A stretch of 40,859 nt of DNA from Anaerolineales bacterium (lineage in GTDB: Bacteria; Chloroflexota; Anaerolineae; Anaerolineales; Villigracilaceae), in contig JACMLM010000014.1 in NCBI GenBank assembly GCA_014379595.1, forward strand, positions 1-40,859. Direction: 5' to 3'. Both the position numbers and the translations under genes were made by a program. Of the stretch, positions 14,398 through 20,356 are shown in pieces; position 1 is the stretch's first letter, and the number at the start of each line of letters is the position of its first letter. The notes beneath the pieces are model-generated. The model was not told the DNA's origin. It did not search any database and was given only the letters and a program-made list of their open reading frames with translations.

Positions 14398-15510
14398 ATG
14401 AGCTCGCTCGCAAATGTATTGGATGATCTAACAGTTGAAGGGGAACTGTACGAATCGCTGCCAGATAACGCGTTACGATGTTACGCGTGCGGACACGAGT
14501 GTTTAATACGTGATGGCAAACGCGGAATTTGTCAGGTACGATTCAATGAGGGAGGGAAACTGCGCGTGCCATGGGGATATGTAGGTGCATTACAAAGCGA
14601 CCCAATTGAAAAGAAACCATTTTCACACGTAATGCCTGGAACAAACGCGCTGACGTTTGGAATGTTAGGCTGTGACTATCATTGCGGGTACTGTCAAAAC
14701 TGGTTAACGTCGCAAGCCATGCGTGACCCTGCTTCAGATGCATCTGCTCAATTGGTGAGGAAGATCACGCCTGCACAAATGGTGGAACATGCAAAAAGAA
14801 CAAATGCTTCCGCTGTTGTGTCTTCATATAATGAGCCGCTCATTACAAGCGAATGGGCTGTGGAAATTTTTAAAGCAGCAAAGCAAGCGGGATTAATGTG
14901 TGCCTATGTATCCAATGGAAATAATACAGCAGAAGTAATGGAATATCTGCGGCCATATTTGGATGCATATAAAGTTGATTTGAAATGTATGACCGATAAA
15001 AATTATCGTAAATTAGGCGGGGTATTGCAGCGTACTTTAGATGGAATCAAACGGGCACGTGAAATGGGGCTATGGGTGGAAGTAGTTACTTTAGTTATTC
15101 CAGGCTTCAATGATTCAAATGAAGAATTATGGGATGCAGCACGTTTTCTTGCAGAGTTATCAATTGATATTCCCTGGCATGTGACTGCTTTTCACAAAGA
15201 TTATAAAATGACAGAGCCTGATAACACCGATTCAAAAACATTATTACGCGCGGCAGAAATCGGGCGCGAGGCTGGGTTGAGATATGTATATGCCGGGAAC
15301 TTACCGGGCAATGTTGGAGAGTATGAGGATACCCATTGTCCGAGATGCAGTATTCAGCTTGTGAAGCGAAGAGGGTATGTCATCCGCGAATATAAAATTA
15401 CCAGCGCAGGAAAATGTCCGCAGTGTGGGGAGAAGATCGCCGGGCTGTGGCCGAAAGACCCCTCCAAAGTAGGGTTAAACGGAATCGGTTATCCGCTGCC
15501 TGTATGGTAG
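14398..15510 (+). CDS. amrS: AmmeMemoRadiSam-system radical SAM enzyme
   Basis: A 370-residue radical SAM protein of the AmrS type. The cluster motif is CDYHCGYC (Cys92, Cys96, Cys99) directly after the TFGMLG strand, preceded by the family's CYACGHEC and GICQVR segments (about 28-47) and KPFSHVMPGT (about 72-81). The C-terminus has a zinc-ribbon pattern, CPRC and CPQC (about residues 315-345). AmrS enzymes are usually encoded with Memo (AmrB) and AMMECR1 (AmrA) homologues; neither is present here. The start has no Shine-Dalgarno sequence and lies 13 nt from the divergent mobA start. The exact substrate is unsettled in the family. Confidence 0.9.
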   Translation: MSSLANVLDDLTVEGELYESLPDNALRCYACGHECLIRDGKRGICQVRFNEGGKLRVPWGYVGALQSDPIEKKPFSHVMPGTNALTFGMLGCDYHCGYCQNWLTSQAMRDPASDASAQLVRKITPAQMVEHAKRTNASAVVSSYNEPLITSEWAVEIFKAAKQAGLMCAYVSNGNNTAEVMEYLRPYLDAYKVDLKCMTDKNYRKLGGVLQRTLDGIKRAREMGLWVEVVTLVIPGFNDSNEELWDAARFLAELSIDIPWHVTAFHKDYKMTEPDNTDSKTLLRAAEIGREAGLRYVYAGNLPGNVGEYEDTHCPRCSIQLVKRRGYVIREYKITSAGKCPQCGEKIAGLWPKDPSKVGLNGIGYPLPVW

Positions 15511-15518: not shown

Positions 15519-15627
15519 TCTTTCACAAATACAAGTTTGAACGGAGGTGCCTTACTCGAGAGTACCAATTCCCTTTCCCCTATTTAAATCAACCCAATTT
15601 TAAATCAAAATTCTCTTGGAGGAGAAC

Positions 15628-17367
15628 GTGAAAAAAAACATTTCTGTTTTACTTTCGCTGATAGTGTTGGCAAGCCTTATGCTTGCAGCCTGCGGCACCC
15701 CGGCAACGGAAGCACCTGTAGCTACTGAGGCTCCTGCTACCGAAGCACCTGCCACTGAAGCACCCGCTACCGAAGCACCTGCTGCCTATGAAGGCATGAT
15801 GGTGGAAGCACCCGACTGCGAATATGGTGGTCAATTCAAATCCATCGAAGCTGTCGATGAATTAACTGTCAAGATGACACTCTGCGTGCCAGATCCTGCT
15901 TTCCCATCAAAGATTGCTTTTACATCCTTTGCGATTCAGCCATCTGAGTATCTTGAATCCACTGGCGGCAATGGTGATCTGCTTGAGAAACCCATCGGTA
16001 CCGGCCCATACATGATCGAATCATGGGAACGCGGCAACCAATTGGTCTTAACAAAGAACCCCAATTATTGGGGTGAGAACATTGGCGCTGAAACCCTGGT
16101 CTTCCGCTGGGGTACTGAGTCTGCTCAACGCTTACTCGAACTTCAATCCGGTACCGTTGATGGTATCGACAACGTTGGTCCCGATGATTTCGCTACAGTT
16201 GAAGGTGATTCAAACCTGGCTCTGTTCAATCGCCCGGCTCTCAATGTTATGTATATCGCTTTCAATAACAACCCCCAAGTTGAAGGCTTCGACAACACCA
16301 CAAACCCATTAGCCAACGAAATGGTACGCCAGGCTATTGCCATGGGTATTGACCGCAATCGTATTGTAGATAATTTCTATCCAGCCGGCTCAGAAGTTGC
16401 TTCCCATTTCACTCCTTGTTCCATTCCAAATGGTTGTGTTGGTGATGAATGGTATGCCTTTGATGCTGCTGCAGCAAAAGCTTTGCTCACCGAAGCTGGT
16501 TACCCAGACGGCTTCGAAACCGTATTGAATTACCGTGATGTTGTGCGTGGTTACCTGCCTGACCCGAACGTTGTAGCCCAGGATATTCAGGCTCAGTTGA
16601 AAGAGAACCTGAATATTACCCTCAACATCGAGGTAATGGAATCTGGTGCCTTCCTCGCGGCGTCTGACGCTGGTCAATTGCAGGGCTTGCACTTGCTCGG
16701 TTGGGGCGCTGACTATCCTGACCAAACCAACTTCCTTGGTTATCACTTCGGTGACGGCGCTTCAAAACAGTTCGGCGATCATTGGCCTGACATTACTGAA
16801 GCTTTAGCACAAGGCGCACAATTGGCTGACGATGCTGACCGCGAACCTTTCTACACCACTGCCAACAATGCAATCCGCACTCACGTGCCGATGATCCCTG
16901 TTGCTCATGGTGGTTCTGCTTTGGCTTTCAAAGCATCAGTTGAAGGTGCATTTGCCAGCCCGCTTGGCAATGAAGAATTCTCTGTGATGTCCAATGGCAC
17001 AGACACTTTCGTCTGGATGCAGAACGCTGAACCCATCTCACTTTACTGTGCTGATGAGACCGATGGTGAATCACTGCGCGCTTGCGAGCAGATTACACAA
17101 TCCCTCTTGAGCTACGAAACTGGCGGTACCGCAGTTGAGCCAGCTCTTGCTGAATCCTATGAAGTCAACGATGATTTGACCGAGTGGGTATTCAAATTGC
17201 GCCCAGGCGTAGTGTTCCACGATGGTTCTACGCTCGATGCGAACGATGTGGTAACTTCACTTTCCGTTCAATGGGATGCTGGCAATCCTCTCCACACCGG
17301 TAACACAGGTGCATTCTCCTATTGGAGCGGTTTGTTTGGTACATTCTTAAACGCTCCCCCAGAGTAA
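15628..17367 (+). CDS. Family 5 extracellular solute-binding lipoprotein, apparently circularly permuted
   Basis: A 579-residue binding protein for a peptide/nickel-type ABC importer. The start is GTG 15628, after GGAGGAG (15618-15624); a TTG at 15616 overlaps that site. A lipoprotein signal ends LAAC (Cys22), then come (A)TEAP repeats (to about 52). The order of the body is unusual. Residues 70-465 hold what is normally the middle and C-terminal part: SIEAVDELTVKMTL, GTGPYMIESW, NPNYWGE, MVRQAIAMGIDR and ALLTEAGYPDGFET. Residues 468-579 hold what is normally N-terminal: ISLYC, ITQSLLSYETG, EPALAESYEVNDDLTEW then VFKLRPGVVFHDG, and DANDV. This is a swap of segments compared with DppA/OppA. 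The gene is intact and followed by two permeases. Confidence 0.88.
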   Translation: MKKNISVLLSLIVLASLMLAACGTPATEAPVATEAPATEAPATEAPATEAPAAYEGMMVEAPDCEYGGQFKSIEAVDELTVKMTLCVPDPAFPSKIAFTSFAIQPSEYLESTGGNGDLLEKPIGTGPYMIESWERGNQLVLTKNPNYWGENIGAETLVFRWGTESAQRLLELQSGTVDGIDNVGPDDFATVEGDSNLALFNRPALNVMYIAFNNNPQVEGFDNTTNPLANEMVRQAIAMGIDRNRIVDNFYPAGSEVASHFTPCSIPNGCVGDEWYAFDAAAAKALLTEAGYPDGFETVLNYRDVVRGYLPDPNVVAQDIQAQLKENLNITLNIEVMESGAFLAASDAGQLQGLHLLGWGADYPDQTNFLGYHFGDGASKQFGDHWPDITEALAQGAQLADDADREPFYTTANNAIRTHVPMIPVAHGGSALAFKASVEGAFASPLGNEEFSVMSNGTDTFVWMQNAEPISLYCADETDGESLRACEQITQSLLSYETGGTAVEPALAESYEVNDDLTEWVFKLRPGVVFHDGSTLDANDVVTSLSVQWDAGNPLHTGNTGAFSYWSGLFGTFLNAPPE

Positions 17368-17391
17368 TTCATCAATCAAGTAGATCTATTG

Positions 17392-17423
17392 GACCCCCGT
17401 CAAGAGTCATCTTGACGGGGGTC
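17392..17423 (+). ncRNA. Strong intercistronic hairpin between binding protein and permease
   Basis: GACCCCCGTCAAGA pairs perfectly over 14 bp with TCTTGACGGGGGTC around GTCA. No T run follows. It ends 13 nt before the permease ATG. Such hairpins commonly protect the upstream message or damp downstream expression; here that is inferred. Confidence 0.7.
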
Positions 17424-17436
17424 TCCCCAAATTGTT

Positions 17437-18516
17437 ATGGCCACTTATATTCTTAGAAGACTCCTGCTCAGTATTCCCGTATTATTTGGAATCTTATTTG
17501 CCACTTTCGCATTGGCACGTTTAATTCCTGGTGACCCTTGCCGTGCCATGTTAGGTGAGAAGGCTACCAAAGTAGTCTGTGATGAGTTCAACCATCGCCA
17601 TGGTTTGGACAGGCCCATACCGATTCAGTTTGGGGTATACGTTAATGAAATCGCTCACGGCGATTTTGGAAATTCCTTCCGCTATTCCAAGCCCATCACT
17701 GAATTACTGATGGAACGCCTGCCCACCACCCTTGAGTTAAGTATTTCGGCACTTTTAATTAGCATTTTTATTGGTATTCCATTAGGGGTGATCGCAGCAG
17801 TCCGCCACAACTCATGGGTCGATGTAATTACGATGATGTGGGCCAATGTCGGCGTATCCATGCCTGTATTCTGGCTCGGGTTAATGCTTGCGTATATTTT
17901 CGCGCTTGCCCTAAAAGACACATTTTTCCAACTTCCACCCTCAGGACGTCTTAGTCCCGGAATTATTACAGTCCCATTTTTTGAAACCTGGGCCATGCAA
18001 CTGAGCGAAGACTCTTTTGCATTTACCATTTTTGATTTTGTCAGCCGTATGAATATTCCCAATGCAATCCTCAGTGGCAATGGAGAATTACTTAAAGACG
18101 CAGTAACTCATTTAATTCTCCCAGCTTTTGCACTCAGCACAATCCCCACAGCCCTCATTGCCCGCATGACGCGTTCTGCCATGCTTGAAGTTCTTGGGCA
18201 GGATTACATCCGAACGGCGCGTGCCAAAGGATTGGTTCGGCGCGCTGTTATTATGAAACATGCATTTCGTAATGCTCTATTACCTCTTGCCACCGTGATC
18301 GGTTTATCTTTAGGCGGTCTATTGGGCGGCGCAGTATTAACAGAAACAGTTTTCAATTTATCTGGAGTTGGCCGTATTCTTTATGATGGTATCACTGCCC
18401 GCGATTACGGCATTATACAAGGATTTACAGTAGTCATTGCAATTTTCTTTGTTGCTTTGAACTTGATCGTGGATATTTCCTATGCCTATCTTGATCCTCG
18501 AATCCGCCTTAACTAA
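17437..18516 (+). CDS. ABC transporter permease, DppB/OppB type
   Basis: The 359-residue membrane protein starts YILRRLLLSIPVLFGILFATF (4-24), the standard first helix of DppB-type permeases, followed by ARLIPGDPCRAMLG and a conserved periplasmic loop. The C-terminal transport domain has about five spans and the EAA coupling loop DYIRTARAKGL (about 261-271) that contacts the ATPase. Length is slightly above usual because of an insert at about 158-205. There is no Shine-Dalgarno sequence before ATG 17437; a hairpin lies just upstream. It forms the membrane channel with the next gene. Confidence 0.93.
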   Translation: MATYILRRLLLSIPVLFGILFATFALARLIPGDPCRAMLGEKATKVVCDEFNHRHGLDRPIPIQFGVYVNEIAHGDFGNSFRYSKPITELLMERLPTTLELSISALLISIFIGIPLGVIAAVRHNSWVDVITMMWANVGVSMPVFWLGLMLAYIFALALKDTFFQLPPSGRLSPGIITVPFFETWAMQLSEDSFAFTIFDFVSRMNIPNAILSGNGELLKDAVTHLILPAFALSTIPTALIARMTRSAMLEVLGQDYIRTARAKGLVRRAVIMKHAFRNALLPLATVIGLSLGGLLGGAVLTETVFNLSGVGRILYDGITARDYGIIQGFTVVIAIFFVALNLIVDISYAYLDPRIRLN

Positions 18517-18524
18517 TAGCTGAT

Positions 18525-19481
18525 ATGACAACCCAAACAGCATCTCCCCTCAAACTTGACACTGAAGGTCTCTCCCTCGATTCGGTGAGTCTCTGGCAGA
18601 TCACACGGCGGCGACTCTTCCGTCGCAAATCATCGCTCCTGGGTATGATCATTCTCGCCATCTTAATAGTGATCGCCTTAACCGCGCAATGGATCGCTCC
18701 TTACGACCCCATTCTTTCCATGTTGGATGCTAACCCGCCGCAGGATATCGGAAAACGCTCTTCTCCATGTATTCATGCTTTAGGCTGTGCAGTAGATCAA
18801 CCTCAGCACATTATGGGAACGGATGGCAATATCCGTGACGAGTTCAGCCGCATGGTTTACGGCGCACGACTGAGCTTATTGATCGGCATCTCCACTGTTA
18901 CGTTTGCCATCATCATTGGCACGGTTCTCGGCGCGCTTGGCGGTTATTTTGGGGGCTGGATAGACAATATCATCATGCGCGTCATGGATGTGCTGTTGGC
19001 TTTTCCCTCTTTACTTCTCGCCATTGCCATTGTCACGGTGATTGGCCCTGGGCTTATTAATGCGTTGATCGCAATTGGCATTGTCTCCATCCCGGCCTAT
19101 GCTCGTGTGGTACGCGGCAGTGTGCTTTCGATCCGTGAAATGGATTTTGTCTCAGCTTCACGTGCGCTTGGCGGAAATACTTATGATATTCTCTTCCGCC
19201 GTATTTTGCCAAACGCGTTGACCCCGCTCATCGTGCAAGGCACACTGGGTATTGCTTCTGCAATTTTGGATGCTGCTGCGCTTTCCTTTTTGGGACTAGG
19301 CGCACAACCCCCCACACCTGAATGGGGCTCCATGCTCGGTGCAGAACGCAATCAAGTTTTTACAGCCCCACACCTTGTCTTTTACCCTGGCTTGGCAATT
19401 ATGCTGACGGTGCTGGCATTCAATTTATTAGGCGATGGTTTACGCGACGCACTTGACCCAAGACTCGCTCATATGAGTTAA
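18525..19481 (+). CDS. ABC transporter permease, DppC/OppC type
   Basis: The 318-residue protein has the DppC layout: a cytoplasmic head (about 1-35), a first span (about 38-58), then a periplasmic loop with two cysteines (CIHALGC, about 83-89) and HIMGTDGNIRDEFSRMVYGAR (about 96-116, split in the usual GTDxxGRD form), and the transport domain with the EAA loop (REMDFVSASRALGG, about 205-218). It starts 8 nt after the dppB-type stop. No DppD or DppF ATPase follows; a strong terminator comes 48 nt after the stop. The importer must use ATPases encoded elsewhere. Confidence 0.93.
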   Translation: MTTQTASPLKLDTEGLSLDSVSLWQITRRRLFRRKSSLLGMIILAILIVIALTAQWIAPYDPILSMLDANPPQDIGKRSSPCIHALGCAVDQPQHIMGTDGNIRDEFSRMVYGARLSLLIGISTVTFAIIIGTVLGALGGYFGGWIDNIIMRVMDVLLAFPSLLLAIAIVTVIGPGLINALIAIGIVSIPAYARVVRGSVLSIREMDFVSASRALGGNTYDILFRRILPNALTPLIVQGTLGIASAILDAAALSFLGLGAQPPTPEWGSMLGAERNQVFTAPHLVFYPGLAIMLTVLAFNLLGDGLRDALDPRLAHMS

Positions 19482-19579: not shown

Positions 19580-20356
19580 TTAAAACATTCCCCACACCGC
19601 CAGCATACCAAAAATAATAACGACCAACCCTGCTCCTAAAATGATCTCACGCGATTCACGTTCATCCTGTAACTTCAATCCAAGCGACGTGCCCATCACT
19701 TCCCAACGCGGACTGGCAAACCACGCGAACATGGCACCGCCTAATAACCCACCTACATGCCCCCAATTATCAATGCCAGGTGTTAGGCCAATGAACAGGT
19801 TAATCGCAATAATAAAAACCGAGTTACTAATTGCCTGGCGTGCAAAATTGCCAAATAATTTTCTGTTTTGGTAAAAGAAGATCAACTGCGCCCCAACCAA
19901 CGCAAACACAGCCGTAGACGCGCCCACGGAATATCCATTTTCACCGGTGAGCAAAAAGGAGAATACATTTCCTGAAAATGCTCCGAGAAAATATAATAAT
20001 ATAAATCTTCCATGGCCAAATTGTTTCTCTAAAAACGATCCAATGGAAAGCAAAGCATACATATTGAAGAAAATATGCGGCATAGAACCATGTAAAAATA
20101 CAGGTGTAATGAAGCGCCACAATTCACCGGCGCGAATGGCTGAATTAAATCGTGCACCGTATACTTCGAGCCAGTCAATTTGATTGGCAGCATAGCCCAG
20201 AACGGCAACGCTCAACAATTGCAAAATATAAACGAACACAGTGAAGCCGATCAAGACATACGTCACCGTGGGCACGAGAGAGGGCAAAGCGACAGCTACT
20301 TCCTGAGGTGACGGAACAGGCTCAACGTTAAAGGATGCTTCGGGATCTTGATTCAT
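19580..20356 (-). CDS. Rhomboid-family intramembrane serine protease
   Basis: A 258-residue membrane protein. The rhomboid core has ELWRFITPVFLHGSMPHIFFNMY (about 78-100) with the HxxxN pair, the nucleophile loop GYSVGAST (Ser147), and HVGGLLGGAMFAW with His200, so the Ser-His dyad is complete. It has six core spans plus an extra C-terminal span (about 236-256), and a soluble N-terminal tail of about 28 residues. Rhomboids cut membrane helices of other proteins; the substrate is unknown. It overlaps the gmk stop by 4 nt (ATGA), so gmk and this gene are translationally coupled. Confidence 0.93.
   Translation of the reverse strand: MNQDPEASFNVEPVPSPQEVAVALPSLVPTVTYVLIGFTVFVYILQLLSVAVLGYAANQIDWLEVYGARFNSAIRAGELWRFITPVFLHGSMPHIFFNMYALLSIGSFLEKQFGHGRFILLYFLGAFSGNVFSFLLTGENGYSVGASTAVFALVGAQLIFFYQNRKLFGNFARQAISNSVFIIAINLFIGLTPGIDNWGHVGGLLGGAMFAWFASPRWEVMGTSLGLKLQDERESREIILGAGLVVIIFGMLAVWGMF

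Follow-up and report, generated by a model that had tools for sequence, protein, structure and literature searches.

A probable circularly permuted family 5 solute-binding lipoprotein in an Anaerolineales genome, and its permuted relatives in Chloroflexota

TpMglB-2 (Tp0684) from Treponema, placed in 'Cluster Bc', is a naturally circularly permuted, tethered binding lipoprotein. In the available part of that report its authors suggest a link between permutation and tethering, and they describe the permuted part as poorly conserved and possibly derived from another gene (PMC4990184). Another circular permutation, detected by structure at less than 24% identity, separates glycine betaine-binding proteins from molybdate-binding proteins and CysB (PMC2395249, in the part available). 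In GlnPQ and OpuA, according to the accessible parts of two papers, binding domains are fused to the permease (PMC8025302, PMC11065425), and internal terminators after binding-protein genes are described, in the accessible portion of a further paper, as keeping the binding protein in excess (PMC9045158). A literature search with most subscription papers outside its coverage returned no report of a permuted family 5 protein. We know of few natural circular permutants that have close canonical relatives.

The gene described here is found in a stretch of 40,859 nucleotides from an Anaerolineales bacterium (contig JACMLM010000014.1), analysed as a whole and called the window below. Frame reading gives an open frame from a GTG at 15628 to a stop at 17365-17367, and its features are collected in Table 1. 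Most plausibly the product is a permuted lipoprotein that works in transport; judging from sequence and predicted structure, we put the probability at about 0.9 that the gene is intact and functional, that it belongs to family 5 (DppA/OppA-like), and that it is a natural circular permutant. An earlier note, made from the letters of the window, had said that a lipobox is kept, and LAAC, which fits the lipobox pattern, can indeed be read directly. After the linker the motifs follow in the order EYGGQFKSIEAVDELTVKMTL, GTGPY, NPNYW, VRQAI, LLTEAGYPDGF and LGWGADYPDQTNF, and the protein then ends with ISLYCADETDGES, EPALAESYEV, KLRPGVVFHDG and LDANDV.

Table 1. Features of the permuted gene and its surroundings (window positions), and of two further permuted frames in the same genome (positions within their loci).
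Feature	Position	Strand	Basis or remark
GGAGGAG, ribosome-binding-site-like, 5' of the GTG start	15618..15624	+	read directly
Start codon, signal peptide and lipobox LAAC	15628..15693	+	read directly; Cys codon 15691-15693
TEAPA linker, low-complexity	15694..15813	+	pLDDT mostly low; <50 at residues 16-36 and 38-48
Part B, residues 62-455: canonical family 5 middle and C-terminal parts, now first	15814..16995	+	Pfam, PDB and VIA matches
Cys63, partner of Cys85	15817..15819	+	co-occurrence
Cys85	15883..15885	+	co-occurrence with Cys63
Junction: old C-terminus (PLGNEEF...) directly into old mature N-terminal strand (TDTFVWMQ)	16969..17007	+	
Part A, residues 456-578: canonical family 5 N-terminal part, now last	16996..17364	+	sequence match; separate model
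Cys473, co-occurring with Cys485	17047..17049; Cys485 17083-17085	+	co-occurrence
Perfect 15-bp hairpin in the gap between binding-protein gene and permease	17391..17424	+	-30 kcal/mol, z -6.48; 0/200 shuffles as stable
DppB-type permease	17437..18516	+	profile scans
DppC-type permease	18525..19481	+	profile scans
Type 3 frames	L199:3772-6360; L200:2625-5174		cut after NPxYW region; C-terminal extension

By score the protein is a member of PF00496 (269.6 bits against a curated cut-off of 32.4 bits), its best stretch being residues 55-378 on profile positions 46-366. The segments do not stand in the canonical order. A genome scan matches profile positions 45-366 at 15790-16764 and positions 2-55 only after that, at 17134-17295, and for this reason the protein is filed as a permuted branch. 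The best PDB matches are 3tpa, 5f1q and 1dpp. With phmmer, query residues 69-450 align to residues 131-507 of the 3tpa chain (i-E 1.3e-40) and query residues 457-566 to residues 7-123 (i-E 3e-8); on the chains of 3tpa, 3m8u and 5f1q, the bulk of the query aligns from about residue 125-153 to near the end, and the chain starts are matched by the last ~80-110 query residues. The swapped Pfam stretches and these alignments confirm the permuted order that the earlier note had proposed. Two segment HMMs find one copy each of parts A and B, abutting with a one-residue overlap. Taken with the Pfam and PDB matches, this gives a complete set of family 5 segments, each present once, and so agrees with the clean swap claimed before. 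What changes is the extent of the swapped last part: it had been given as 468-579, and the moved piece is residues ~456-578. A duplication with an overlap at profile positions 45-55 is ruled out because the PDB alignments have no such overlap, and the one seen with PF00496 is best read as edge extension. On these alignments the new chain ends would lie at about residue 122 of mature DppA. No equivalog model of NCBIfam was matched at its cut-off, the best being DppA_dipep with 174.2 of 1005.

Structure prediction, proposed earlier as a check for one complete fold, bears this out. For the full chain AlphaFold2, run on 75 sequences, predicts a single fold with confidence (pLDDT 91.4, pTM 0.86), the signal and linker being the low-confidence regions. 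DppA-type proteins rank first for the full model in both Foldseek and VIA. In VIA the Z scores are 30.9 to 5f1q and 30.5 to 1dpp with aligned residues within 56-457, and as both programs are sequential the full-model comparison covers residues ~56-457 and nothing of 458-578. Sequential aligners cannot follow a permutation, and residues 456-578 were therefore modelled alone (pLDDT 76.5, pTM 0.62). VIA places this model of part A on residues 1-122 of DppA (1dpp, Z 6.8) and on residues 8-128 of 3tpa (Z 7.2), and Foldseek gives no match to it at E <= 0.001 (best 1.9e-3, top rows family 5). The family 5 fold is thus recovered for residues 56-457 (Z 30.9) and more weakly for residues 456-578 alone (Z 7.2); for the identity of part A, the sequence match to the canonical N-terminal part is stronger evidence than the model. 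The sequence and the monomer model would also be compatible with a domain-swapped dimer or oligomer, in which part A of one chain completes the next and no monomer is permuted, and the title of PDB entry 8qlh describes a domain-swapped dimer formed by the binding protein AliC. Such an arrangement is nevertheless quite unlikely here, given that the monomer model is confident across parts A and B and that parts B and A are joined with practically no linker to spare.

Several cysteines of the permuted proteins occur in pairs. Type 1 is used here for the rotation of the window gene (B before A); the 145 type 1 rows compared include some genes that were fetched twice. Across these rows Cys63 and Cys85 are both present in 125, the first only in 0, the second only in 3 and neither in 17, the corresponding figures being 107, 0, 0 and 38 for Cys263/Cys269 and 127, 0, 3 and 15 for Cys473/Cys485, with all counts inflated by relatedness and duplicate rows and with the columns of different pairs also correlated. 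A further pair, Cys510/Cys521, is absent from the window protein (both in 74 rows, one only in 0, none in 71). Cys63 and Cys85 bracket the first hairpin past the linker, and a putative C63-C85 disulfide probably pins the new N-terminus in this way. The lipid anchor and linker would now leave the protein from the subdomain that bears the cut, and no longer from the old N-terminus. This subdomain is presumably domain II of OppA, within whose boundaries the cut would fall.

Directly downstream, as the earlier note had it, are matching permeases of the DppB and DppC types. The next listed frame past DppC is 19580-20356 on the opposite strand, which leaves the window without an immediately following ATPase gene. 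The link to these permeases holds in other genomes as well. Among the best 80 of at least 550 relatives confirmed in named bacterial genomes, DppB is found downstream in 74 loci; where more than 2.6 kb of downstream sequence is available (68 of these 80 loci), both permeases are present in 64 and ATPase(s) as well in 24. No permease lies downstream in 6 of the 80, two of which (L079 and L105) have fewer than 450 bases of contig left. The permuted protein would open and close on a peptide-like ligand and pass it to the permeases. A different role, as a sensor or adhesin domain and not as a transport component, could be argued from permuted modules that stand alongside caspase and FHA domains (L167) or within a 3232-aa frame (L046). 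For the window gene this is distinctly improbable, with its lipobox and linker retained and a DppB-type permease following both it and 74 of the best 80 of the named relatives. On the upstream side, a radical SAM enzyme of the AmmeMemoRadiSam system (TIGR04337, 285.6 bits) is found directly adjacent at 14398-15510, and a relative of this enzyme lies upstream in 17 of the 80 named loci (the best 80 of at least 550).

The permuted lipoprotein of the window is not the only rotation of family 5 in this lineage. Type 2, first represented by a 679-aa frame in G092, has the canonical residues in a different rotation: in L145, phmmer aligns query residues 240-578 to DppA 29-373 and query residues 62-237 to 374-535, covering nearly the whole of mature DppA with a cut at 373/374 of the precursor. 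Within one family, 4 of the 21 genomes have it, all in a single genus (L144-L147 in G092, G392, G391 and G393). In trees it adjoins the canonical L049 and L050, and its identity to L049 is 73-75% in the larger part and 62-64% in the smaller. Eleven loci that had been candidates for type 2 (L186-L189, L191-L193 and L195-L198) are all collinear and were rejected; their match to L049 had stopped near residue 407-414. Types 1 and 2 are both close to one canonical subfamily and might be taken for steps of a single serial permutation. This is highly improbable, with type 2 nested beside canonical L049/L050 and a joint clade of the two types rejected (AU p 1.4e-8).

Type 3 is represented by two lipoprotein-like frames of 863 and 850 aa in the window's own genome (contigs C15 and C38; L199 and L200). 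This genome therefore has three family 5 genes that are permuted, at two cut sites in all. On the 863-aa frame PF00496 is matched first by profile positions 148-349 and later by 23-141, the latter at 26.6 bits and so below the cut-off; on the 850-aa frame only positions 148-354 are matched. A profile of 13 type 3 proteins aligns its positions 68-313 to residues 323-587 of 7fi3 (i-E 1.9e-28) and positions 480-734 to residues 63-307 (i-E 2.2e-13). Collinear relatives are found in 37 of 150 class genomes, including four with identities of 28-31%, two split into two pieces and one with an internal stop; a 38th genome (G190) has a fragment. Permease-like frames, identified by reading only, follow both L199 and L200. 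Type 3 differs from types 1 and 2 in its cut and has little similarity to them, which suggests that it arose separately; judging from the sequences, this lineage appears to have seen two or more permutations besides type 1, with cuts at other sites.

The type 1 order is widespread. Homologues with the same order, whose existence in Chloroflexota the earlier note had proposed as a check, were found among relatives and in genomes of the class and the phylum. Of 101 relatives' genomes, 48 (50 genes) have full-length matches in this order across the join; 67 of the 101 have a match of any kind at E <= 1e-20, and those that are not type 1 are canonical or type 2. It crosses the join in 127 of 298 class genomes; 128 have a match at E <= 1e-60, the one in G333 ending before the join, and no match at that level was found in the other 170. 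In the phylum set the figure is 37 of 301 genomes, with 42 matched and five of these having no crossing or a doubtful one. All of the best 80 of the at least 550 named-genome relatives have the match, uninterrupted by stops, and by the segment HMMs B precedes A in every one. Carriers include Bellilinea caldifistulae GOMI-1 (L102), Candidatus Oscillochloris fontis (L117) and, outside the phylum, the actinomycete Ilumatobacter nonamiensis YM16-303 (L126), where transfer is a likely reading. G026 and G110, which also show the order, are one-contig genomes. No relative was found among viral contigs (P0001). The gap between B and A is -2 to +1 residues in 143 of the 145 type 1 rows, and 144 of them end at most 6 residues from the end of A, with L046 continuing; an order shared by 145 rows excludes chance. 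The window gene is under purifying selection, dN/dS being 0.065 against L064 and 0.063 against L065, with parts A and B alike, and 0.097 against L073; these are few pairs, with dS at 1.3-1.6 for the best two and saturated against L071, L084 and L095. The window's assembly is in 72 contigs, and a misjoin of two neighbouring canonical genes in assembly or binning could in principle give an unreal order, a reading of practically negligible probability that is refuted by independent genomes with the identical order: order and join recur in 48/101, 127/298 and 37/301 genomes, named-strain records and one-contig assemblies show them too, and the frame is stop-free with dN/dS of ~0.06 against two orthologues.

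For the origin of type 1, trees were built with A and B rearranged into the canonical order. In the first tree type 1 forms one clade (support 81). A free quick tree with more deep members has type 1 in two places (2 changes); holding it as one clade gives a log-likelihood 65 above that tree (AU p 0.969), which favours a single origin. Among canonical rows, L182-L184 and L189 lie closest to type 1 in the trees. In part A, L153-L155, which are deep rows of type 1, share 58-59% identity with L049. Type 1 most likely arose once, early in Chloroflexota. Its probable route is that a family 5 module was duplicated in frame and the outer parts were then lost, as had been suggested from the window alone; the seamless join fits this route, and no tandem intermediate of such a duplication was seen. 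The duplication might have taken place in the signal-less C-terminal domain of a fusion of two binding proteins.

Fusions of this kind are frequent. In the class-genome scan 52 of 135 type 1 rows are frames of at least 770 aa, and a Pfam scan of 26 type 1 proteins, mostly picked for their length, shows another binding-protein family in front in 18: family 3, Peripla_BP_6, SBP_bac_1 (L047) or Bmp (L046). Peripla_BP_6 is present twice in L092 and L168, and alongside family 3 in L157. Seven canonical relatives were scanned as well; six of at least 805 aa are fused, and L045, a 683-aa frame, is not. L157, L092, L168, L083 and L047 are single exported chains with 2-3 binding-protein domains of different families, the chain of L083 also holding a heme-binding-like domain. 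The frame of L167 (909-4166) joins a permuted family 5 module to caspase, HEAT and FHA domains, which suggests a sensor rather than a transporter. The frame of L046 (2306-12001) measures 3232 aa or more; it combines a Bmp domain, a partial other family 5 protein and a family 5 module of the permuted order, and long repeat-like sequence comes after these. The partner tree for family 3, with 31 rows, mixes permuted and canonical proteins (8 changes of the permuted label, at least 5 of them forced by starred branches) and so does not support one co-inherited fusion; partners have probably been exchanged. On the first tree, parsimony with equal costs leans slightly towards an ancestor of type 1 that was already fused (7 changes as opposed to 9), with the fused state of 14 rows assigned by hand, mostly from Pfam scans. 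From this mild preference one may speculate that modules become permuted while they are fused and lack a signal. Within a fusion, tandem duplication and trimming would give a working permutant with no internal signal peptide. It is possible, if rather doubtful, that the recurrent permutation (at least three times, with three cuts) is explained in this way, by duplication and trimming of signal-less C-terminal modules, the solo proteins having later lost their partner.

Beyond what the earlier note had claimed, the permutation is old and widespread, two other cut sites exist, and fusion behind other binding proteins is frequent. A single lineage here provides three cut sites in one well-studied fold, together with canonical proteins close by and sequences in the hundreds, and the set lets the origin of a permutation be tested. 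It can likewise be asked whether the anchor point of the lipoprotein affects the hand-over of ligand to an ABC importer. A further question that the set opens to testing is which loops of the flytrap fold tolerate new ends, which is useful to designers of sensors. Domain lists under-describe such genes, as Pfam gives the family and not the order.

Circular permutation has precedents in other clusters of binding proteins; its recurrence in family 5 is unusual. With DppA, OppA and HbpA (family 5, cluster C, PF00496) the window protein shares its segments, fold, lipoprotein-type export and adjacency to DppB/DppC, and it differs in being rotated, with part A (~residues 1-122 of mature DppA) last. 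Like TpMglB-2, it is circularly permuted relative to a canonical relative, and the likeness to 'Cluster Bc' is one of topology only: TpMglB-2 has the Type I/cluster B sugar-binding fold and the window protein that of family 5, and unlike the permuted part of TpMglB-2, as characterised in the available part of that report, both parts of the window protein are clearly homologous (PMC4990184). The hairpin downstream of the gene resembles the internal terminators known after binding-protein genes, as far as these are described in the accessible portion (PMC9045158). GlnPQ and OpuA are alike in having more than one binding domain per importer; their domains, in the accessible parts of those papers, are linked to the membrane, whereas here different families are joined in one exported chain (PMC8025302, PMC11065425). 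Finally, the permutation of the glycine betaine-binding proteins, as presented in the part available, lies between families (PMC2395249), while the one described here lies inside a single sequence family, at three cut sites.
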